Below, in pieces: positions 4,180 through 13,816 of a stretch of DNA of 64,000 bases. Location: NCBI GenBank assembly GCA_900696495.1, contig CAADGI010000012.1, positions 1 through 64,000 on the forward strand, given 5' to 3'. Each line of letters starts with the position of its first letter. Position 1 is the first letter of the stretch. Source of the stretch: an uncultured Alphaproteobacteria bacterium. GTDB taxonomy: Bacteria; Pseudomonadota; Alphaproteobacteria; Micavibrionales; Micavibrionaceae. The notes under the pieces are model-generated. The model was given only the letters and a program-made list of their open reading frames with translations. It was not told the DNA's origin and did no database searches. The translations under genes and the position numbers were made by a program.

Positions 4180-4193
4180 TTGATTTTTGTCAA
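4180..4193. promoter_or_regulatory. FNR/FixK-type box, near perfect
   Basis: TTGATTTTTGTCAA matches TTGAT-N4-ATCAA with one change; read on the other strand it is TTGACAAAAATCAA. Its centre is 41.5 bases from about 4145 on the - strand. That would give a 22-base leader for the CBS gene and place TTTCCT at the -10 position. It probably drives the CBS-Usp-PH-Usp unit. Confidence 0.65.
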
Positions 4194-4214
4194 AAAAACC
4201 AAAAATACAGAAAC

Positions 4215-4228
4215 TTGATTAAAATCAA
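4215..4228. promoter_or_regulatory. FNR/FixK-type box, perfect
   Basis: TTGATTAAAATCAA matches the FNR consensus TTGAT-N4-ATCAA at all ten defined positions. A start site 41.5 bases downstream of its centre would fall near 4263, 15 bases before the alcohol dehydrogenase ATG and just ahead of AAGGAG (4265-4270). A weak TTTCCT lies at the -10 position (4251-4256). The placement fits class II activation of the alcohol dehydrogenase gene. Confidence 0.75.
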
Positions 4229-4277: not shown

Positions 4278-5318
4278 ATGAAAGCACTTGTTTATAACGG
4301 TCCTGGTAAAAAATCGCTTGAAGAGCGGCCCATGCCGCAAATTCAGATGCCTACCGATGCGGTTGTCAAGATTCTAAAGACAACCATATGTGGAACCGAT
4401 TTGCATATTCTAAAAGGAGATGTGCCGACTTGTGAGCGGGGGCGCGTTCTGGGGCATGAGGGGGTTGGTGTCATTGAACAAGCGGGGCCGGCGGTTACAG
4501 GTCTTGAGCGCGGAGACAAAGTTCTGATTTCCTGCATTACATCGTGTGGAAAATGCGAAAACTGCCGCAAGGGCATGTATTCACATTGTGCTCATGGCGG
4601 CTGGATTTTAGGGCATAAAATCGACGGCACCCAGGCCGAATATGTTCGCATTCCTTTTGCCGAGACCAGCTTATACAAGCTTCCTGAAGGTGTAGAAGAT
4701 GAAGCCGCTGTTATGCTGAGTGACATTTTCCCGACGGGATATGAATGCGGTGTTCTTAATGGAAAAATCAAACCCGGCGATACGGTGGCGATTATCGGTT
4801 CCGGCCCGATCGGGCTTGCAGTCTTGCTGACCGCTCAATTTTATACTCCCGCCCAGATTATTATGGTCGATGTAGATAATAAGCGGCTCGAAGTCGCCAA
4901 ATCCCTGGGCGCGACGCATATTATCAACGCCGGCGATGAACAAGCCGTAGAGAAAATTCTGGAACTCACGGAAGGTAAGGGCGTTGACGCCGCTGTTGAA
5001 GCGGTTGGGATTCCAGCCAGCTTTGTTATGTGTGAAGACATTGTTGCTCCGGGCGGCGTGATAGCCAATGTGGGCGTTCACGGCAGCAAGGTCGACCTTC
5101 ATCTTGAGGATTTGTGGAGCCAGAACATTACTATTACGACACGGCTTGTCGATACAGTGACTACACCGATGCTGCTGAAAACTGTTCAGGCGAAGAAAAT
5201 AATACCGACAAAGCTTATAACGCATCGCTTTAGCCTTGATGAAATTATCACGGCTTATGAAGTCTTCGGCAAAGCGGCTGAAACAAATGCTCTTAAGGTC
5301 ATTATCAACGCAGGTTAG
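4278..5318 (+). CDS. Zinc-dependent alcohol dehydrogenase (MDR family)
   Basis: This 346-residue cytoplasmic NAD(P)-dependent oxidoreductase of the medium-chain family interconverts alcohols and aldehydes or ketones. The catalytic zinc site is visible as C38-GTDLH and GHEGVG. The structural zinc site is CGKCENCRKGMYSHC. The Rossmann motif is GSGPIGLAVLL, and MVDVDNKRLEVAK ends the second beta strand. The start at 4278 is preferred over an upstream in-frame ATG because AAGGAG precedes it and homologues begin MKAL. It is transcribed divergently from the stress unit across two FNR-type boxes. A role in reoxidising NADH at low oxygen is an inference; the exact substrate is unknown. Confidence 0.9.
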   Translation: MKALVYNGPGKKSLEERPMPQIQMPTDAVVKILKTTICGTDLHILKGDVPTCERGRVLGHEGVGVIEQAGPAVTGLERGDKVLISCITSCGKCENCRKGMYSHCAHGGWILGHKIDGTQAEYVRIPFAETSLYKLPEGVEDEAAVMLSDIFPTGYECGVLNGKIKPGDTVAIIGSGPIGLAVLLTAQFYTPAQIIMVDVDNKRLEVAKSLGATHIINAGDEQAVEKILELTEGKGVDAAVEAVGIPASFVMCEDIVAPGGVIANVGVHGSKVDLHLEDLWSQNITITTRLVDTVTTPMLLKTVQAKKIIPTKLITHRFSLDEIITAYEVFGKAAETNALKVIINAG

Positions 5319-5498
5319 AAACCATGAAACCAATACAAGATAGTCCCATTATTAATTTCATGTGCAAAATCTTGATTTTGGAGAAATGCTTTCCATTTCT
5401 TTTCAAAAAGCAAGATTCGGCCCCCCGAAAGTTTACAGGCGCTCATTCCAAGGAAATGAAATGCCGTGATTGTGCAACGGACTAAAGGAGAACTTATC

Positions 5499-5957
5499 AT
5501 GAAAAATCTGCTGTTCATTACATCTATGATTTTGCTTTCATTCGTTTCCGCTCACGCGAGCGAGGAAAACACAGAAATTGAAGTTGCGTTCACAGTCGCA
5601 GACATCTTTCCCAACGGTCTTATCGATAGCGGAGAGTTCGATATTTATAATCTAAAGACGTTTGAGTCTCTGGATATGGATGGCAGCGCAAGCCTCGATC
5701 GTGAGGAGTGCGCGAATGATTGTTTTCCTGCAAATGTAAACATTGATGGTTCTCCGGGAGTGATCAGATACCCGTTCAGAGTGCTTGATGCCAATAAGAG
5801 CGAGAGCGTTACGGCAGCGGAATATCTATCGCACAGCAGAAAGCAATTCAGGGTTTACGACGATGATAAAAACGACTCGCTTAACAAAGATGAGTTTTAT
5901 GCGTTTTATCAAGGTTTAAAAGACAGAACCTATATTGCAGATAAGCAAAAAGAGTAG
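5499..5957 (+). CDS. Secreted EF-hand calcium-binding protein
   Basis: This 152-residue protein begins with a cleavable signal peptide (MKNLLFITSMILLSFVSAHA, cut after about residue 20). Three EF-hand loops follow: DMDGSASLDREE, DANKSESVTAAE and DDDKNDSLNKDE, each with acidic residues at loop positions 1, 3, 5 and 12; an earlier degenerate loop may exist near PNGLIDSGEFD. It should sit in the periplasm and bind calcium. AAAGGAG (5484-5490) fixes the start at 5499. It lies 180 bases after the alcohol dehydrogenase and 3 bases before the next small gene. The function beyond calcium binding is not evident. Confidence 0.78.
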   Translation: MKNLLFITSMILLSFVSAHASEENTEIEVAFTVADIFPNGLIDSGEFDIYNLKTFESLDMDGSASLDREECANDCFPANVNIDGSPGVIRYPFRVLDANKSESVTAAEYLSHSRKQFRVYDDDKNDSLNKDEFYAFYQGLKDRTYIADKQKE

Positions 5958-7492: not shown

Positions 7493-8272
7493 GTGGAGAA
7501 AATATTAAAAGATCCAGCAGGACAATTTGTTCGCACCTTGCCATTCTTTGATGGCTTGCCGGATACAGACATGAATGTTTTTGCCGCTGCAAGCCGCGCT
7601 AAAAATTATAAAAAAAACGAAAGTCTTTTTCATCTGGGCGACCCCGCCGACCGTTTTTTTGTCGTCTTAAGCGGATGGATAAAACTTTACCGCGAAACCG
7701 GCGATGGCGAAGAGGCCGTTGTCGCGCTTTTCAAGCGCGGCGATGTTTTTGGAGAGGCCGCAATCTTTAATGGCGCAGGCTATCCTTTCTCTGCGGTCGC
7801 GAGCGAAGATTCCAAGGTTATTGAAATTTCAGCCGCAGTGCTGCGCGAGCGCGCCCGCCAAAATCATGACATCATGGACAGGATCATGGCTTCTATGTCT
7901 AAGGAGCTAAGGGATTTGCAGCTTGAAAATGAGCATCTTGCGTTGATGAGCGCTCCGCAGCGTGTCGGCTGTCTTTTACTTCAGCTTTCCGCAGGCATGA
8001 TAGGGAAAGGCGGAACATTTTCTTTTCCTTACGATAAGTCGTTAGCTGCTGCGAGGTTGGGTATGAAGCCTGAAACATTTTCCCGCGCTCTCGCGCAGCT
8101 TAAACCTTACGGCGTCACTGTAAGCGGCCCGGAAGTTAAAGTTGAAAGTTTTTCCTGTCTTATTGATTATTGCTGCAGTCACTGCTCGTCACTTCCCGGG
8201 GAATGTCCGGGATCAAGAGGCAGATGCGCCGATAGAGCTTGTGCCGGGAAGAAAACAGGTACTTGTGATTAG
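7493..8272 (+). CDS. Crp/Fnr-family regulator with a cysteine-rich C-terminal tail
   Basis: This 259-residue protein has a cyclic-nucleotide-binding-like fold at about residues 15-130 (HLGDPADRFFVVLSGWIKLY, GDVFGEAAIF) and a dimer helix, followed by a winged helix (SLAAARLGMKPETFSRALAQL) whose recognition helix fits the FNR/FixK group. There are no N-terminal cysteines, so it is not a classical iron-sulphur FNR. Instead, eight cysteines lie in the last 38 residues (222, 227, 228, 231, 238, 245, 250, 258), including CCSHC. The start is GTG. It lies between two regions bearing FNR-type boxes and is the obvious candidate to bind them. Redox or metal sensing by the tail is an inference. Confidence 0.88.
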   Translation: MEKILKDPAGQFVRTLPFFDGLPDTDMNVFAAASRAKNYKKNESLFHLGDPADRFFVVLSGWIKLYRETGDGEEAVVALFKRGDVFGEAAIFNGAGYPFSAVASEDSKVIEISAAVLRERARQNHDIMDRIMASMSKELRDLQLENEHLALMSAPQRVGCLLLQLSAGMIGKGGTFSFPYDKSLAAARLGMKPETFSRALAQLKPYGVTVSGPEVKVESFSCLIDYCCSHCSSLPGECPGSRGRCADRACAGKKTGTCD

Positions 8273-8763
8273 AACCAAACAATCTTTTTCAGTTGCCGGT
8301 GTAATTCTTTCCCCTTCATTTTTGTAAGTTCTTTGTCAATTTCGGCCACGATCCGGTTTTGAACAGTTTTATGAAGGCGAGGGCGCAAGTCTCCCAAAGT
8401 TCGCGGCGCTGCAATCAGAACAAGGCGATCATAAGATTCAGTTTCTGCGGCCTCTTTAAGCCATTGAGACAGGTCCTGCGCAAAGTTAATAGCATCATGG
8501 CGACCTGGCTGCAGACGGGGCTGTAATTTGTGGCGGTTTGACCCGTGAAGACTGGTGACCCGGCCCATGGAATCATCCGGTATGCCTTTCCTGCGTTCTC
8601 TGATGACGGGATTGGCTTCGTATATGAGTTCAAGATGCGATCCGGATTTTTTATAAATATGCGCGATTTCCTGATCGGCAACGACAATCCAGACGATCGG
8701 CGCTTTATGATGATGCGGCTCCTTAGATAGAGGGGCTGCGTCCTTTGTCATTTTAAGTTTCAT
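8269..8763 (-). CDS. Host-attachment (eRF1-like, baeRF) family protein
   Basis: This 164-residue soluble protein resembles the pfam 'protein required for attachment to host cells'. It shows IVWIVVADQEIAHIYKK near the N-terminus and LVLIAAPRTLGDLRPRL followed by IDKELTKM in the second half. The fold is related to the eRF1 middle domain. Despite the name, the molecular role is unsettled and may concern ribosomes or RNA. It converges with the Crp/Fnr gene, overlapping it by four bases, and faces away from the operon at 8938; the FNR box at 8876-8889 could also serve this gene on the - strand. Confidence 0.75.
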   Translation of the reverse strand: MKLKMTKDAAPLSKEPHHHKAPIVWIVVADQEIAHIYKKSGSHLELIYEANPVIRERRKGIPDDSMGRVTSLHGSNRHKLQPRLQPGRHDAINFAQDLSQWLKEAAETESYDRLVLIAAPRTLGDLRPRLHKTVQNRIVAEIDKELTKMKGKELHRQLKKIVWF

Positions 8764-8875
8764 AAAGTTTTCCTTTTAAAAATGCTGGAAAGAAGTTTCC
8801 CCCTTTCCAGCGAGTTTTCAGGGAGATGGTGAGGTAAACACGGGTAAATAGCAGCACAAAGCGGTTTTTGCTTAT

Positions 8876-8917
8876 TTGATAAAAATCAAGAAAGGCCATT
8901 TCCCTCTGTGACATAAA
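8876..8917 (+). promoter_or_regulatory. FNR-type box with matching class II promoter
   Basis: TTGATAAAAATCAA (8876-8889) is a perfect TTGAT-N4-ATCAA site. CATAAA (8912-8917) lies where a -10 hexamer would be if transcription began near 8924, which puts the box centre at -41.5, the class II FNR position. The leader would be 14 bases and contains GGGAG (8926-8930) before the ATG at 8938. Confidence 0.75.
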
Positions 8918-8937
8918 AGTAAACAGGGAGAAGGGCT

Positions 8938-9648
8938 ATGTGTTTTTCAGCAGCGGCCAGCTTTGCAATGTCGGGAGTTCTCGCTGTCGGCGGGTTTTAT
9001 TGTGTTTCGAGGGCGTATAAACAAAGTCCAAAATACTTGCCCATGGCTCTTATGCCGCTATTTGTAGCTATTCAGCAATTTTTTGAGGGGTTGGCCTGGG
9101 TTAGCGCAGAAAATAATCTTCCAGACGCTCTTTATAGCGCAGCGCTTGCTTATATGTTTTTTGTCTGGGTGTTCTGGCCTTCGTGGGTTCCATACATGAC
9201 GTCTATACTCGAACCGCAAGAAAAAAGACGGAGGCTTTTATCTGCATTATCATTAACGGCCTTGTTCTTTGGTTTGTTTTTGTACGTCCCTTACTTTTTT
9301 CACCCGGCATGGCTTCAGGCACAAATTCTCTGCCATTCAATTGATTATAAAACCACGCTTATATCTGATCAATTTATTCCGAGACCGCTGACGGCATTAA
9401 TATATCTTGCATTTGTGGGCGCTACGCCGCTTTTATCGTCCCATCGGCAAGTTAAAAATTTTGGGCGCTCTTTAATCTTTTTTATCCCCTTGACTTATTT
9501 TGCCTATAGTCATGCATATATCTCAGTGCTTTGTTTCTTCGCAGCCATGGCAACTATTCAGCTCGTTTATATTATTTCTGAAGATAAATGCGCGATTAAC
9601 ACAAGGCGCGTGCCAGTCAAAAACAGTCGGGGAAGATTTTGGAGATAA
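8938..9648 (+). CDS. DUF6629-type membrane protein
   Basis: This 236-residue integral membrane protein has about seven membrane segments and starts MCFSAAASF, a beginning I associate with the DUF6629 family. Two conserved-looking cysteines lie in segment 1 and in the loop near residue 132. Its function is unknown. It is the first gene of a five-gene operon whose members overlap or abut, under the FNR-type promoter at 8876-8917. The start at 8938 follows GGGAG with good spacing. Its last ten bases overlap the LysE-family gene. Confidence 0.7.
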   Translation: MCFSAAASFAMSGVLAVGGFYCVSRAYKQSPKYLPMALMPLFVAIQQFFEGLAWVSAENNLPDALYSAALAYMFFVWVFWPSWVPYMTSILEPQEKRRRLLSALSLTALFFGLFLYVPYFFHPAWLQAQILCHSIDYKTTLISDQFIPRPLTALIYLAFVGATPLLSSHRQVKNFGRSLIFFIPLTYFAYSHAYISVLCFFAAMATIQLVYIISEDKCAINTRRVPVKNSRGRFWR

Positions 9649-10262
9649 TTTTATCTTTTATAGTGACGTGTGCCCTTATTGAGCTTACGCCCGGCCCCAA
9701 TATGGCTTATCTGGCGATTTTAAGCGCGGGCGAGGGAAAACGCGCAGGCTTTGCAGCTATAATTGGCATAGCTCTGGGTTTATTTATCGTGGGCATTGCT
9801 TCCGCTTCAGGCGTTGCCGTCCTCATCTCAAGCTCAAAGCTAATTTATGAAACTCTTCGCTGGTGCGGCGTTCTTTACCTGCTATGGCTGGCTTGGGATG
9901 GCTGGAATACAAGCAAGGAAACATCGCCGCCGCGAACGAATTCCAAAATAAGGGATAGGAAATTCTTTCAGCGCGGGCTGATCACGAATCTTTTGAATCC
10001 CAAGGCTGTTGTTTTTTATGTGGCGATTTTGCCGACTTTTACAAGTGACGCATCGCCGGTTTTGTCCCAGACAGTTCTTTTGACAATTATCTATGTAACA
10101 ATTGCCACATTTATTCATGTCATTATTGTTTTGCTCGCCGGCTATGCTTACAAACTCTTTGACAAGCCAAAACAGATATTATTTATTCGCCGTAGTTTGT
10201 CGTTCTTACTTGTTATCGTTGCGCTTTGGTTTGCGGTTTCAACGGCAGGGATGAAGCCATGA
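9639..10262 (+). CDS. LysE/RhtB-family amino acid exporter
   Basis: This 207-residue inner-membrane protein has about six membrane segments. The signature ELTPGPNMAYLAILSAGEG in the first loop identifies the LysE/RhtB family, which exports amino acids or small metabolites by proton exchange; NLLNPKAVVFYVAILP is the second family motif. Translation starts at TTG (9639) just after GGGGAAG, overlapping the upstream gene by ten bases. The stop overlaps the ATG of the metallo-hydrolase gene (ATGA). The substrate cannot be told from the sequence. Confidence 0.88.
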   Translation: MEIILSFIVTCALIELTPGPNMAYLAILSAGEGKRAGFAAIIGIALGLFIVGIASASGVAVLISSSKLIYETLRWCGVLYLLWLAWDGWNTSKETSPPRTNSKIRDRKFFQRGLITNLLNPKAVVFYVAILPTFTSDASPVLSQTVLLTIIYVTIATFIHVIIVLLAGYAYKLFDKPKQILFIRRSLSFLLVIVALWFAVSTAGMKP

Positions 10263-11614
10263 AGTTGACCTTTTTGGGCGCGACCCGGACTGTCACAGGC
10301 TCTAAGTATCTTCTGGAGCATGAACAGAAAAAATTTCTGGTTGATTGCGGCCTGTTTCAGGGCAAGAAAGAATTGCGACTGCGCAATTGGGATAATCCCC
10401 CCTTTGATGTCGGCAAGATCGATGCAGTTCTTTTAACGCATGCCCATCTGGATCATAGCGGATATGTCCCTAAGCTTGTTGCCAGGGGTTATGAAGGGCC
10501 GATTTATTGTTCCGAGGCTACTTATGATCTTTGCAAAATCCTATTACCGGACAGCGGCCATATACAGGAAGAAGACGCGGAAAGGGCGAACAGGTATGAA
10601 TATACCAGGCATCATCCTGCGCTGCCTTTATATACTGAAGCCCAGGCAAGAAAATCATTGCAGTTCTTTAAACCGTTGCCTTTTGGCCAGCCGCATTTCC
10701 TGACGGATGAACTCGGGTTTGAACTTTTCCGCGCCGGCCATATTTTGGGCGCTTCTTCCATTCGTATCAGTCATCTGAATACTTCCATTCTTTTTTCCGG
10801 TGATGTTGGACGCCTTCATAATCCTGTTATGAAGCCGCCTGTAAAAATTCATGACGCTGATTATCTGGTTCTTGAATCCACCTATGGAAATCGTCTCCAT
10901 GATAAAGATGATCCTATAGAAGATATTGGCCGAATTGTCAGGGAAACTGCCGCAAGGGGCGGCACCGTTGTTATCCCGGCCTTCGCCGTAGGACGCACGC
11001 AGGACATGCTTTATTATCTGCACACGCTAAAAAGCGAGCGCCGTATCCCGAATATTCCAGTCTATCTGGACAGTCCGATGGCCATCAATGCCACAGGTCT
11101 TATGCATAAACATATGAACGATCACAGGCTTTCGCCGGAGGAATGCGCCGATGTATGCGGCGTCGCCCGGTATCTCCACACGGTACAAGAATCGAAAAGC
11201 CTGAACAGTAACCCGATGCCGAAGGTCATTATTTCTGCCAGCGGGATGGCAACAGGCGGGCGTGTTTTGCATCACCTGAAGCATTATCTGGGCGATGCAA
11301 AAAACACTATTCTGTTTGCGGGCTTTCAGGCGGCAGGGACAAGAGGCGACAGACTGGTTAAGGGAGAAAAGGAAATTAAAATTCACGGCCATCTCCGGGC
11401 AGTGCATGCACAAATTGAAAATCTTCATAATGTTTCCGGCCATGCCGATTATGAAGAAATGTTAACCTGGCTGGAAAGCTTTAAAAAATCTCCGCGTAAG
11501 GTCTTTATCACGCATGGGGAGCTGGATGCTGCCAAAAGCATGAAGAAAAAGATCGAAGATAAATTTGGTTGGGATGTTATTGTTCCTGAATATATGTACA
11601 GCGAGGAACTATGA
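10259..11614 (+). CDS. Beta-CASP metallo-beta-lactamase-fold RNase-type hydrolase
   Basis: This 451-residue protein has a metallo-beta-lactamase core with THAHLDHSG as the zinc motif (residues about 60-68). A beta-CASP insertion follows with AFAVGRTQDML, DSPMAIN and SASGMATGGRVLHHL, and the protein ends with the RNA-metabolising domain (VSGHADYEEML, VFITHGE). Members of this group are zinc-dependent RNases related to CPSF-73 and archaeal CPSF; no S1 or KH domain is attached. The ATG at 10259 overlaps the exporter's stop, so an upstream in-frame start inside that gene is rejected. It lies in the FNR-box operon, which suggests RNA turnover under low oxygen. Confidence 0.88.
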   Translation: MKLTFLGATRTVTGSKYLLEHEQKKFLVDCGLFQGKKELRLRNWDNPPFDVGKIDAVLLTHAHLDHSGYVPKLVARGYEGPIYCSEATYDLCKILLPDSGHIQEEDAERANRYEYTRHHPALPLYTEAQARKSLQFFKPLPFGQPHFLTDELGFELFRAGHILGASSIRISHLNTSILFSGDVGRLHNPVMKPPVKIHDADYLVLESTYGNRLHDKDDPIEDIGRIVRETAARGGTVVIPAFAVGRTQDMLYYLHTLKSERRIPNIPVYLDSPMAINATGLMHKHMNDHRLSPEECADVCGVARYLHTVQESKSLNSNPMPKVIISASGMATGGRVLHHLKHYLGDAKNTILFAGFQAAGTRGDRLVKGEKEIKIHGHLRAVHAQIENLHNVSGHADYEEMLTWLESFKKSPRKVFITHGELDAAKSMKKKIEDKFGWDVIVPEYMYSEEL

Positions 11615-12288
11615 GTACGGTTCACAACGATCATGATTATAAGCTGTTGCGCGGCGCGGAAAACTATTTTCTCGATCTGAAGCGCTCTATAAGAATATGG
11701 CAAGAATTCCGTTACGGGTTCCGTAATCTCAACAAGGTCGGCAAATGTGTTACTATTTTTGGCTCCGCGCGTTTTAAAGAAGATAATCCTTATTACAAAC
11801 TTGCCTATCAAACCGCGTTTGAGGTTGGCAAAGCCGGATATGCCGTCATGACGGGAGGCGGGCCGGGAATTATGGAGGCGGCCAATAAGGGCGCAAAAAA
11901 CGCAGGCGCTTTATCGATTGGCTGCAATATAGAACTTCCTGTTGAGCAGACTCCCAATCCTTACACGGATGTCACGCTGCGGTTTCACCATTTTTTCGTA
12001 CGCAAGGTCATGTTGCTAAAATACTCCACGGCATTCATTCTCATGCCAGGCGGATTTGGAACCATGGACGAGGTTTTTGAAGTCGCAACGCTTATTCAGA
12101 CGAGGAAAGTCTGCAATTTTCCGATGATCGTTATGGGCAGCGACTACTGGAAGGAAATCGGGCCTTTCATGAGAAAGACGATGGTGGCCCAAGGCACAAT
12201 CAGCGAGAGCGATCTTGATATCGTCAAAATAGCGGATGATCCATCGGAGGCGCTGCGGCTTATCCAAACCCCTTACGAGTGCCCATGA
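11611..12288 (+). CDS. LOG-family nucleotide phosphoribohydrolase (TIGR00730-like)
   Basis: This 225-residue Rossmann-fold protein carries both LOG signatures: GGGPGIMEAANKGA (about residues 82-95) and PGGFGTMDEVFE (about 147-158). Enzymes of this family cut the base from nucleoside monophosphates (cytokinin-type or general purine and pyrimidine monophosphates). About 45 residues precede the core, more than in the shortest LOG proteins. Its ATG overlaps the upstream stop by four bases (ATGA). Being next to NnrD and a beta-CASP nuclease suggests nucleotide salvage or repair; whether it prefers adenosine monophosphate derivatives is not visible. Confidence 0.85.
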   Translation: MSTVHNDHDYKLLRGAENYFLDLKRSIRIWQEFRYGFRNLNKVGKCVTIFGSARFKEDNPYYKLAYQTAFEVGKAGYAVMTGGGPGIMEAANKGAKNAGALSIGCNIELPVEQTPNPYTDVTLRFHHFFVRKVMLLKYSTAFILMPGGFGTMDEVFEVATLIQTRKVCNFPMIVMGSDYWKEIGPFMRKTMVAQGTISESDLDIVKIADDPSEALRLIQTPYECP

Positions 12289-12296
12289 GGATCAAA

Positions 12297-13121
12297 ATGA
12301 ATTCAGTAAAAAATAACCCCGGCCTGTGGCTCTCCGATTTGCCTCAGCCGAGACCGGAAGGGAACAAGTATGATCGTGGTCATCTAATTATTTTAGGCGG
12401 CACGGAAATGACCGGCGCGGCGCGCCTGGCTTCCGAAGCTGCCATGCAGATAGGGTGCGGTCTTTGCACCATCGTATCAGCGCCGGAAACCAAGGACATT
12501 TATTTGTCCGGCCCGCCGCATATCATGTTTGAGTCTTATAAAACGCTTCAGGACTTTTCTGATCACTTAACCGATCCAAGACGCAATGCCTGTGTGATCG
12601 GTCCGGGTGCAGGAAGAGGCAATGCTGAAGAATTGAGGCATTGTGTCGAACATGTTTTAAAGCTCAGAAAGGCTACAGTGGTCGATGCCGACGCCATGAA
12701 TGTTTTTCAAGATAAGCATGCCGATCTGTCCTATGTGCTACATGAAAATTGTGTATTGACGCCGCATGAAGGAGAGTTCGCCCGGCTTTTTCCGTTTTTG
12801 GATGGAACGCGGGAAGAGCGAATCCGGAAAGCCGTGGAACTTACGGGCGCTGTTATATTGCTTAAAGGCCCCGAGACAATCATATGTGATCCAGGCGGCG
12901 AGATGATCATTAATGATCATTCAACGCCGCTATTGGCAACAGCGGGATCGGGCGATGTACTTGCCGGTATGATCGGCGGCTTGCTTGCCGAGGGCATGCC
13001 AATTTTGAAAGCCTGCGCCGCCGCGAGCTGGATTCATGGCGAAGCCGCATTAGAGTTTGGGCCCGGCCTGACAGCGCCTAATATAATAACCACCATTCCC
13101 CTTGTTTTGGCCTCTTTGTAG
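12297..13121 (+). CDS. nnrD: ADP/ATP-dependent NAD(P)H-hydrate dehydratase
   Basis: This protein of about 274 residues is a stand-alone YjeF C-terminal domain of the ribokinase superfamily. It removes water from damaged S-NAD(P)HX using a nucleotide. Motifs seen are GHLIILGGTEMTGAARLA, GPGAGRG, VDADAMN, LTPHEGEF, KGPETIICDP and TAGSGDVLAGMIGGL, the last containing the catalytic aspartate. The N-terminal epimerase domain (NnrE) found fused in many bacteria is absent. The ATG at 12297 has GAGG six bases upstream; ATG 12285 (overlapping the previous stop) and GTG 12279 are alternatives. It is the last gene of the FNR-box operon. NAD(P)H damage repair suits a cell with stalled NADH oxidation. Confidence 0.88.
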   Translation: MNSVKNNPGLWLSDLPQPRPEGNKYDRGHLIILGGTEMTGAARLASEAAMQIGCGLCTIVSAPETKDIYLSGPPHIMFESYKTLQDFSDHLTDPRRNACVIGPGAGRGNAEELRHCVEHVLKLRKATVVDADAMNVFQDKHADLSYVLHENCVLTPHEGEFARLFPFLDGTREERIRKAVELTGAVILLKGPETIICDPGGEMIINDHSTPLLATAGSGDVLAGMIGGLLAEGMPILKACAAASWIHGEAALEFGPGLTAPNIITTIPLVLASL

Positions 13122-13139
13122 TGTCCCTTAATAATCTTA

Positions 13140-13167
13140 AGTTCCTGAAATCAACAATTTAGGAACT
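13140..13167 (+). terminator. Hairpin after nnrD
   Basis: AGTTCCT (13140-13146) pairs with AGGAACT (13161-13167), and AAAT/ATTT extend the stem inside after a bulged G around a CAACA loop. It starts 18 bases after the nnrD stop. The following run is only GTTT, so intrinsic termination would be weak. Confidence 0.4.
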
Positions 13168-13205
13168 GTTTCCCTTCCGCGATTGTTGGAAGAAAAGGGA
13201 GATCG

Positions 13206-13307
13206 ATGATGCCGCAGCATGCTTACTGGACCGGCTATATGCGTTTGTCGCTGGTGACGTTTCCGTTCCGGCTTTACCCGGCGCTCTTAATATCGGTAAA
13301 AAACTGA
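13206..13307 (+). pseudogene. Remnant of a Ku DNA-end-binding protein (N-terminus)
   Basis: The frame beginning ATG 13206 encodes 33 residues, of which AYWTGYMRLSLVTFPFRLYP is an excellent match to the start of bacterial Ku (pattern WxGxxxLSLVxxPVxLYPA). GGGAGATCG precedes the ATG. It stops at TGA 13305. A second frame from 13286 continues with LNIGKKLNKTTEKI, which could correspond to the next Ku strand after a frameshift, then also stops. The remaining roughly 230 residues and a LigD partner are missing. Bacterial Ku works with LigD in non-homologous end joining, so this organism has lost that copy here. Confidence 0.65.
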
Positions 13308-13350
13308 ATAAAACCACCGAAAAAATAGTTAAGGATTTTTTCGATTCCCG

Positions 13351-13437
13351 CCAGGATTTGAGGATTATTTGACAGATAACGGCAAACCTGTCATAAAACC
13401 CGCGCAGTTGATAAATGCTCTCTTTGTTGAGGGCTGA
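13351..13437 (+). pseudogene. Possible transposase N-terminal fragment
   Basis: One frame reads FEDYLTDNGKPVIKPAQLI and on to ALFVEG before TGA at 13435. The pattern of an acidic start, G-K/R-P, then a helix with LLxALF resembles the DUF772 N-terminal domain of IS5/IS1182-type transposases. There is no start codon, no catalytic domain and no terminal repeat. The resemblance is short and could be chance. It would fit a decayed mobile element beside the Ku remnant. Confidence 0.22.
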
Positions 13438-13517
13438 GCTTACAGAAAAGTATCCGCCGTTAAGGGTACGTGAAGTTAGAATCCTCACTTTTTTCCGCAA
13501 AGTTCAATTTATAGCTG

Positions 13518-13573
13518 AAGCCTTTTAAGAGGCTTAGAAGCGTTTTCGCGTTGTGCGGAGCGCGCAACACCAT
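13518..13573 (+). promoter_or_regulatory. Structured leader of the cold-shock gene
   Basis: Two hairpins lie upstream of cspA. The first is AAGCCT-TTTAAG-AGGCTT (13518-13535), perfect. The second is GTTGTGC-GGAGC-GCGCAAC (about 13550-13568), with one G-T pair. Structured leaders are usual for cold-shock genes, where they control stability and translation with temperature. The promoter itself was not recognised. Confidence 0.45.
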
Positions 13574-13594
13574 ATTTGAACAAAGGAAGAAAAT

Positions 13595-13816
13595 ATGACG
13601 ACGACTAACACAGGCACAGTAAAATGGTTCAACGAGCAAAAGGGCTTTGGATTCATCCAGCCCGCAGGCGGCGGCGGCGACGTATTCGTGCATATCAGCG
13701 CCGTTGAAAAAGCAGGCATGCGCACATTGGCCGAAGGCCAGAAGATCAGCTACGAACTGCAGCTCGATCCCAAAAAGGGCAAAAACAGCGCGGTCAATCT
13801 GAAAGAAGCCGCCTAA
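13595..13816 (+). CDS. cspA: Cold-shock protein, CspA family
   Basis: This 73-residue single OB-fold protein binds single-stranded RNA and DNA. Both RNA-binding motifs are present: KGFGFIQP (RNP1) and DVFVHISAV (RNP2). A loop of three glycines (PAGGGGDV) is slightly longer than in enterobacterial CspA. GGAAG precedes the ATG. It sits 81 bases upstream of a DEAD-box helicase on the same strand; the two together form a cold-response pair that melts RNA structure. The gene symbol is the family name; several paralogues probably exist in the genome. Confidence 0.93.

Follow-up and report, generated by a model that had tools for sequence, protein, structure and literature searches.

What could unite five tightly packed genes, for a DUF6629 protein, a LysE-type exporter, a beta-CASP nuclease, a LOG nucleotide hydrolase and the NAD(P)H-hydrate dehydratase NnrD, behind a single FNR-type binding site? 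The question is raised by positions 8876 to 13121 of the window, by which we mean the whole 64,000-nt stretch of contig CAADGI010000012.1 (assembly GCA_900696495.1) from an uncultured Micavibrionaceae bacterium that was analyzed here. At a probability of about 0.48, we read these genes as a low-oxygen operon of the FNR/FixK type for the turnover of RNA to bases, with LOG in the place of a phosphorylase. The surprise lies in one nuclease that is repeatedly paired with two different base-releasing enzymes, together with a four-cysteine regulator encoded nearby, and not in the FNR box. The operon and its promoter consist of the following elements:

8876 to 8889, palindrome without strand: FNR/FixK/DNR-type site TTGATAAAAATCAA, a perfect TTGAT-N4-ATCAA, identical in the relative G002
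8912 to 8917, + strand: -10-like CATAAA, with the same 22-nt gap in G002
8938 to 9648, + strand: first gene, DUF6629 protein (PF20334, 63.3 bits, cut-off 27)
9639 to 10262, + strand: LysE-type translocator family protein with a TTG start (PF01810, 98.4 bits, cut-off 25.6)
10259 to 11614, + strand: beta-CASP metallo-hydrolase with an RNA-specificity domain (PF10996, PF07521; motif THAHLDHSG)
11611 to 12288, + strand: type-II-like LOG nucleotide phosphoribohydrolase (TIGR00730, 136.6 bits, cut-off 96.35; PGGFGTMDE at 146-154, R131, E154)
12285 to 13121, + strand: stand-alone NnrD, NAD(P)H-hydrate dehydratase (PF01256, 180.6 bits; TIGR00196, 185.8 bits, cut-off 129.85; motif GSGDVLAG)

The 22 nt between box and CATAAA place the box centre 29.5 bp from the first -10 base, and the ATG of the first gene follows at 8938, 3′ of both. 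A distance of 29.5 bp is the spacing of class II activator promoters, and it is found at 8876-8917 as well as in G002, a genome of the same genus, confirming the class II layout of FNR box and -10 that an earlier note on this DNA had claimed. Between the two genomes, the 14 bases of the box, CATAAA and the length of the gap are all identical; of the spacer bases, 13/22 are identical and 9/22 differ, and an ungapped comparison of the 60 bases before the box gives 23 identities. Box and -10 thereby seem to stand out, on the thin basis of a single relative. The label 'FNR' holds for the type of site and not for FNR specifically, as FNR, FixK and DNR share this site and canonical FNR was not found in the genome.

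In the genome (2.04 Mb in 25 contigs), TTGAT-N4-ATCAA occurs as a perfect site seven times, and its reversed pattern not at all. Two of the seven lie in the window (at 4215 and 8876) and four within about 20 kb of contig C14, where their neighbours are molybdopterin, nitrate transport and nitrate reductase genes (by eye) plus two Crp/Fnr regulators (by family search). Among the neighbours of the seventh, on contig C23, no anaerobic gene was recognised. The operon may thus form part of an FNR/FixK-type low-oxygen regulon island, of which the window holds two further sites:

4215 to 4228, palindrome without strand: second perfect box, upstream of a Zn-alcohol dehydrogenase gene (4278-5318)
4180 to 4193: one-mismatch box, beside the second perfect box and before the same dehydrogenase gene

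Tandem boxes before a Zn-alcohol dehydrogenase gene occur both here (4180-4228) and in locus L075 (16458-16505); the G002 version consists of two one-mismatch boxes.

Pfam and NCBIfam searches, together with the coordinates of the junctions, bear out the five overlapping or nearly overlapping genes and the families that the earlier note had assigned to them. The TTG start of the LysE gene at 9639 falls inside the end of the DUF6629 gene (9648), and the other junctions are ATGA overlaps at 10259-10262 (LysE/beta-CASP), 11611-11614 (beta-CASP/LOG) and 12285-12288 (LOG/NnrD), with ATG 12297 or GTG 12279 as alternative NnrD starts. A single transcript across all five genes is plausible from this packing. 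A consensus scan of 8750-13600 returned 10 promoter-like sites (shuffles: mean 7.1, sd 3.4) and eight terminator-like sites (shuffles: mean 6.7, sd 2.3), neither number being clearly above its shuffles; some single matches of these kinds occur on the + strand within genes, which leaves room for internal starts.

The central enzyme pair consists of the nuclease and LOG. In the former, the metallo-beta-lactamase (MBL), beta-CASP and RMMBL domains and the HxHxDH motif are all present, and its solved relatives are TTHA0252, Cas14, and archaeal and eukaryotic CPSF. The likeness to TTHA0252-type beta-CASP ribonucleases extends over nearly the whole length; genomic context and control differ. An identity as type VII Cas14 was considered and rejected, the NF045584 score (388.6 bits) being far under the cut-off of 800. 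For LOG, the nearest solved protein is the type-II enzyme CgLOGII (Cg1261, 5wq3), with which it shares the PGGxGTxxE motif, an N-terminal extension and both catalytic residues, Arg131 and Glu154 being the counterparts of Arg155 and Glu178. These two residues and the motif are invariant across 15 aligned sequences. Against the stricter LOG and PpnN equivalogs, the protein scores 38.1 and 32.2 bits, under the cut-offs of 300 and 450. The phosphoribohydrolase activity of type-II LOG was assayed with AMP (adenosine monophosphate), according to the available part of PMC5379747; unlike for the pair described here, a linkage to a nuclease is not mentioned for CgLOGII in the part of its description at hand.

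How often the two enzymes travel together was read from 143 genomes (own included). At E 1e-60 or better, 51 of them match beta-CASP, in 53 copies. Flanks, some ended by a contig edge, were examined for 52 of these (a short match in G139 was left out), including three distant copies (38-39% identity) and one fragment (G116). Genes in pieces or with a stop were counted as well, namely beta-CASP in G086 and G076, and LOG and LysE in G038. LOG lies near the nuclease in 15 of the 52 copies, at gaps of 61 bp to 1.3 kb, measured to the nuclease gene or, in divergent cases, to the LysE gene preceding it. Within the family, 17 genomes carry both genes, and these lie side by side in 15, from 12 different genera; the remaining two, G006 and G034, carry them on separate contigs. 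The two are co-directional, with LOG downstream, in our genome and G002, and divergent in the other 13, so their adjacency is not kept by co-transcription alone.

A second base-releasing enzyme is linked to the same nuclease elsewhere. Nine of the 143 genomes have an AMP-phosphorylase-type enzyme that scores over the NF003338 cut-off, and in eight of them it adjoins the nuclease; a phosphoribosyl pyrophosphate (PRPP) synthase is present in seven of these eight loci, and in the remaining one (G073), the contig ends there. Two of the phosphorylases were compared with the AMP phosphorylase equivalog and scored 486.3 and 490.6 bits, under its cut-off of 535, so that AMP is only their presumed substrate. 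LOG at E 1e-25 has no match in any of the nine phosphorylase genomes. That LOG and phosphorylase are strict alternatives is not upheld: the two are never found in one genome, but P reaches only 0.02 among the 51 nuclease genomes when kinship is ignored. DUF6629, present in 17 of the 143 genomes (own included), follows the PRPP synthase gene in G070, G088 and G103 and is therefore a repeated companion of the nuclease as well; G048 and G075 have a one-mismatch box a short distance in front of it. In G070 and G088, phosphoketolase, beta-CASP, phosphorylase, PRPP synthase and DUF6629 are consecutive, the phosphoketolase label stemming from sub-cut-off NCBIfam matches. A packed row in locus L033 (3460-10369) has a phosphoketolase-like gene, beta-CASP, AMP-phosphorylase-type enzyme, PRPP synthase and DUF6629, possibly for fermenting ribose from nucleotides. 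Such fermentation via phosphoketolase is rejected for the present organism, in whose genome neither a phosphoketolase match nor an AMP phosphorylase over cut-off was found.

Within the genus, the nuclease and LOG of G002 are 83% and 82% identical to ours. Its operon reads LysE, beta-CASP, LOG, an ion-channel family protein, a second small protein (no Pfam match) and NnrD, and DUF6629 has no match in that genome. The third genome of the genus, G001, has no match to DUF6629, NnrD, beta-CASP or LOG at the thresholds used. Promoter, LysE, beta-CASP, LOG and NnrD are thus shared by two of the three members and the exact five-gene order is found in one only. Conservation of that order, a check that the earlier note had proposed, accordingly fails: DUF6629 is absent and two genes are inserted in G002, and the module is absent from G001. 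DUF6629 and NnrD are best explained as lineage-specific additions to a beta-CASP/LOG core.

Boxes recur in front of the nuclease in other genomes, with neighbours that differ. Upstream of the 52 copies, over stretches of up to 2.5 kb, six perfect boxes were found (in our genome, G002, G086, G068 and, twice, G048); a first-order Markov model run for 30 rounds predicts 0.13, and the reversed pattern is absent. Since most linked copies have no such box, control by low oxygen is not a built-in property of the module; for the nuclease genes as a group, it would be recurrent, not general.

Several observations weigh against our low-oxygen RNA-to-base reading. Perfect boxes within 2.5 kb upstream are missing in 12 of the 15 LOG-linked and all eight phosphorylase-linked copies, and one-mismatch boxes are not strikingly frequent (10 against 6.5 expected, reversed 1). 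LysE stands directly 5′ of the nuclease in nine of the 52 copies (ours added from the window), and G001, in the same genus, does without the module altogether. The solved relatives of the nuclease include Cas14 besides RNases, and its RNA substrate is a prediction. The ribose-to-acetyl-phosphate route that G070 and G088 suggest is unavailable in our genome. Finally, a genome scan with the LOG alignment covered named bacterial and archaeal genomes of many phyla (several loci with short flanks; own or very near genomes may be omitted): a beta-CASP match is absent from all of the best 80 loci of at least 595 stretches, and LysE matches a single locus, weakly (60 bits or less). A wide beta-CASP–LOG association is therefore unsupported, and the pairing is, to our knowledge, known only in this lineage.

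That LOG has no adjoining nuclease in these 80 loci also favours an alternative in which the genes are neighbours only through a regulon island of unrelated stress genes, with a common promoter and no common pathway. The same holds for the lack of perfect boxes before most nuclease copies, for the content of the operon, which differs from G002 by the loss or gain of DUF6629 and by two extra G002 genes, and for the other partners of the nuclease in relatives (DUF350, an ATPase-like gene and Nnr). We nevertheless consider this alternative somewhat unlikely, because the adjacency of LOG and beta-CASP in 15 of 17 family genomes from 12 genera and the parallel phosphorylase–nuclease linkage in eight of nine genomes speak against it. 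As to the partners themselves, a relative of the DUF350 protein encoded at 254-1138 of the window lies 0.9 to 3.5 kb upstream of beta-CASP in five genomes (L265, L266, L270, L180 and L280), and the ATPase-like gene (GGPGAGKTA, by eye) directly follows beta-CASP in L181 (10928-11635), L180 (8891-9562), L265 (5442-6146) and L183 (12697-13356).

Which protein might read the box? The likeliest candidate is encoded 0.6 kb away from it:

7493 to 8272, + strand: Crp/Fnr-family regulator, proposed reader of the box (ETFSR recognition helix at 194-198; C160, C228, C231, C238)

Four Crp/Fnr proteins of the genome score over the HTH_Crp_2 cut-off, and two more match weakly below it. Three of the four have the ETFSR recognition helix, which presumably matches the DNA contacts of FNR; the fourth is without it. 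Canonical FNR binds its [4Fe-4S] cluster through an N-terminal cysteine pattern, and the N-terminal cysteine set of E. coli FNR is found by eye in none of the four (the two weaker matches were not read), leaving canonical FNR unsupported as the reader that the earlier note's label implied. In an alignment of 32 sequences from the best-scoring loci plus the genome's own paralogues, C160, C228, C231 and C238 are invariant in all 25 sequences at 45% identity or more (own included); in the seven more distant ones, C160, C228 and C231 are found in four and C238 in seven. These four-cysteine regulators (7493-8272 in the window; L136-L159) have one cysteine before the DNA-binding domain and three in the C-terminal tail, and 4/7 of the distant ones also keep all four, ending in C-x2-C...FPC. 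A single-sequence AlphaFold2 model of the regulator was too poor to be used (mean predicted confidence, pLDDT, 52.9).

The Fnr of Bacillus subtilis and B. cereus is likewise a Crp/Fnr protein with conserved C-terminal cysteines of the form C-x2-C-x(n)-C, and in Bacillus, these (C227-x2-C230-x4-C235) bind a [4Fe-4S] cluster together with Asp141, as given in the available part of PMC3520743. The local regulator differs in its n, which is 6 and not 4, and in having the invariant C160 as its putative fourth ligand, in place of Asp141 in B. subtilis. Because its four invariant cysteines resemble these cluster ligands, we propose that the local regulator may carry an oxygen-labile cluster. The available part of the paper on RedB (PMC9603854) yielded no information on cysteines.

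Such a metal or Fe-S sensor would speak against another explanation, in which the site responds to nitric oxide or nitrate respiration, in the manner of DNR/NNR, and not to oxygen. So would the genes of the island: those for a universal stress protein (USP), alcohol dehydrogenase and Host_attach, and one in G002 that looks CBS-like by eye, are similar to genes of FixK/FNR regulons. A nitric oxide-sensing reader is conceivable, because FNR, FixK and DNR have one target sequence in common (PMC2908626, in the part available). Besides, in the ranking of solved structures related to the local regulator, the DNR protein 3dkw takes third place, ahead of FNR-type and FixK2 entries, and the nitrate-respiration region of C14, with narK and NnrS genes (by eye), encodes two more ETFSR regulators, the gene of each being closely preceded by a perfect box. 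On balance, we regard this explanation as unlikely.

The box region is also shared with a gene on the other side:

8269 to 8763, - strand: Host_attach / baeRF-12 gene, divergent (PF10116, PF18856)

It is conceivable that the box mainly serves this gene and that its use by the + strand operon is incidental. A divergent Host_attach gene lies at the same place in G002, where the box sits between it and LysE, and the Bradyrhizobium Host_attach gene bll4645 has a box at -69 and appears in the FixK2-dependent table of PMC9104804, as far as that source was available. Against this, the box/-10 spacing on the + strand is exactly that of class II and is preserved in G002, and the best -10-like element on the - strand, TATTTA (by eye), is 3 bp too distant. 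We therefore deem this use of the box highly improbable. Two other reading frames of the window are noted in passing: an EF-hand protein (5466-5957) with a weak lanmodulin match (29.5 bits, cut-off 135) and 78% identity in G002, and, behind the operon, a short broken reading frame (13206-13360; 33 residues without a Pfam match), which we take to resemble the start of a Ku protein.

The last gene of the operon fits less easily. By family match, its NnrD supplies the ADP-dependent dehydratase of NAD(P)HX (hydrated NAD(P)H) repair. The three genomes of the genus, ours among them, gave no match to the epimerase NnrE in a search that was positive in 13 of 14 controls (over cut-off in 12), and therefore only the dehydratase half of the repair appears to be present. 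A complete system for repairing hydrated NAD(P)H, as the earlier note had it, is thus unlikely. Across the family, 71 genomes have NnrD, 26 of them with NnrE and 45 with NnrD alone; as NnrE is missing from most, its loss is a trait of the lineage and not specific to the operon. The nuclease gene of G106 is followed, after 3 bp, by the start of a bifunctional Nnr gene, and the coordinates in G103 give the same arrangement; both genomes belong to genus g53 of another family. The link between NnrD and the nuclease is accordingly weak but not nil. Of the coupling of RNA turnover, base release and NAD(P)H repair claimed by the earlier note, genomic linkages support the first two, and the NAD(P)HX part is made less likely by the missing NnrE.

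In our low-oxygen RNA-to-base reading, the operon could work as follows. On a drop in oxygen, an activator of the Crp/Fnr family, most probably the product of 7493-8272, would occupy 8876-8889 at -41.5 and recruit RNA polymerase. The recurrent core of beta-CASP and LOG, often with LysE, would then act on RNA: the nuclease may help to degrade it, and LOG would release the free base from nucleoside monophosphates by hydrolysis, leaving ribose 5-phosphate; in other genomes, the phosphorylase may fill this role by phosphorolysis. LysE could serve to export one of the products, a base being our guess at its cargo, and NnrD, which would remove hydrated NAD(P)H, fits this scheme less well.

A related arrangement is found in Bradyrhizobium diazoefficiens, where bll3117-bll3116-bll3115 encode a thymidine phosphorylase family protein, a PRPP synthase and an MBL hydrolase in a predicted operon, with a site ATGATCTGGGTCAA at -74 and values of -6.6 (bll3117) and -30.6 (bll3115) in the fixK2 deletion column (available part of PMC9104804). 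A microoxia study lists all three in its table of differential protein and gene expression (PMC6515984, as available), and Host_attach and USP genes stand in the same FixK2/low-oxygen tables of these two sources. The likeness thus comprises the FNR/FixK-type box and the MBL hydrolase gene, with FixK2 dependence on the Bradyrhizobium side; bll3115 is probably a beta-CASP protein, because the order phosphorylase, PRPP synthase, nuclease in G130 matches. The differences are phosphorylase and PRPP synthase in place of LOG, and a predicted operon that, in the part at hand, lists no NnrD, DUF6629 or LysE. With the alphaproteobacterial FNR/FixK/DNR core regulons, the operon shares the type of site. 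USP is listed there under the FNR regulon, and a CBS-domain protein, phosphoketolase and Zn-alcohol dehydrogenase in the group printed before FNR, taken as FixK; the words 'lactamase', 'exonuclease' and 'phosphorylase' appear nowhere in the main text of that source, as far as available (PMC2908626). Among the open-licence PMC papers listed by our searches, none of which was aimed at NAD(P)HX, we found no description of this five-gene operon and nothing on DUF6629 or on AMP phosphorylase combined with phosphoketolase.

A bolder generalization, which we offer as quite a long shot, would make this an exchangeable RNA-to-base module: one beta-CASP nuclease with either of two unrelated enzymes for base release, LOG or AMP-phosphorylase/PRPP synthase, placed in some lineages under a Crp/Fnr activator that senses oxygen via a C-terminal four-cysteine cluster, so that anoxia would turn surplus RNA into ribose phosphate and exported bases. 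Our main reading, of a low-oxygen RNA-to-base operon, is made testable by the different base-releasing enzymes beside the same nuclease in relatives. If true, it would open the disposal of RNA by bacteria whose respiration has stopped to genetic study, and it would suggest a function both for TTHA0252-like nucleases and for bacterial type-II LOG proteins, which are often annotated as lysine decarboxylases. Attention is also drawn to a group of Crp/Fnr regulators in which four cysteines are conserved and which may be oxygen sensors.

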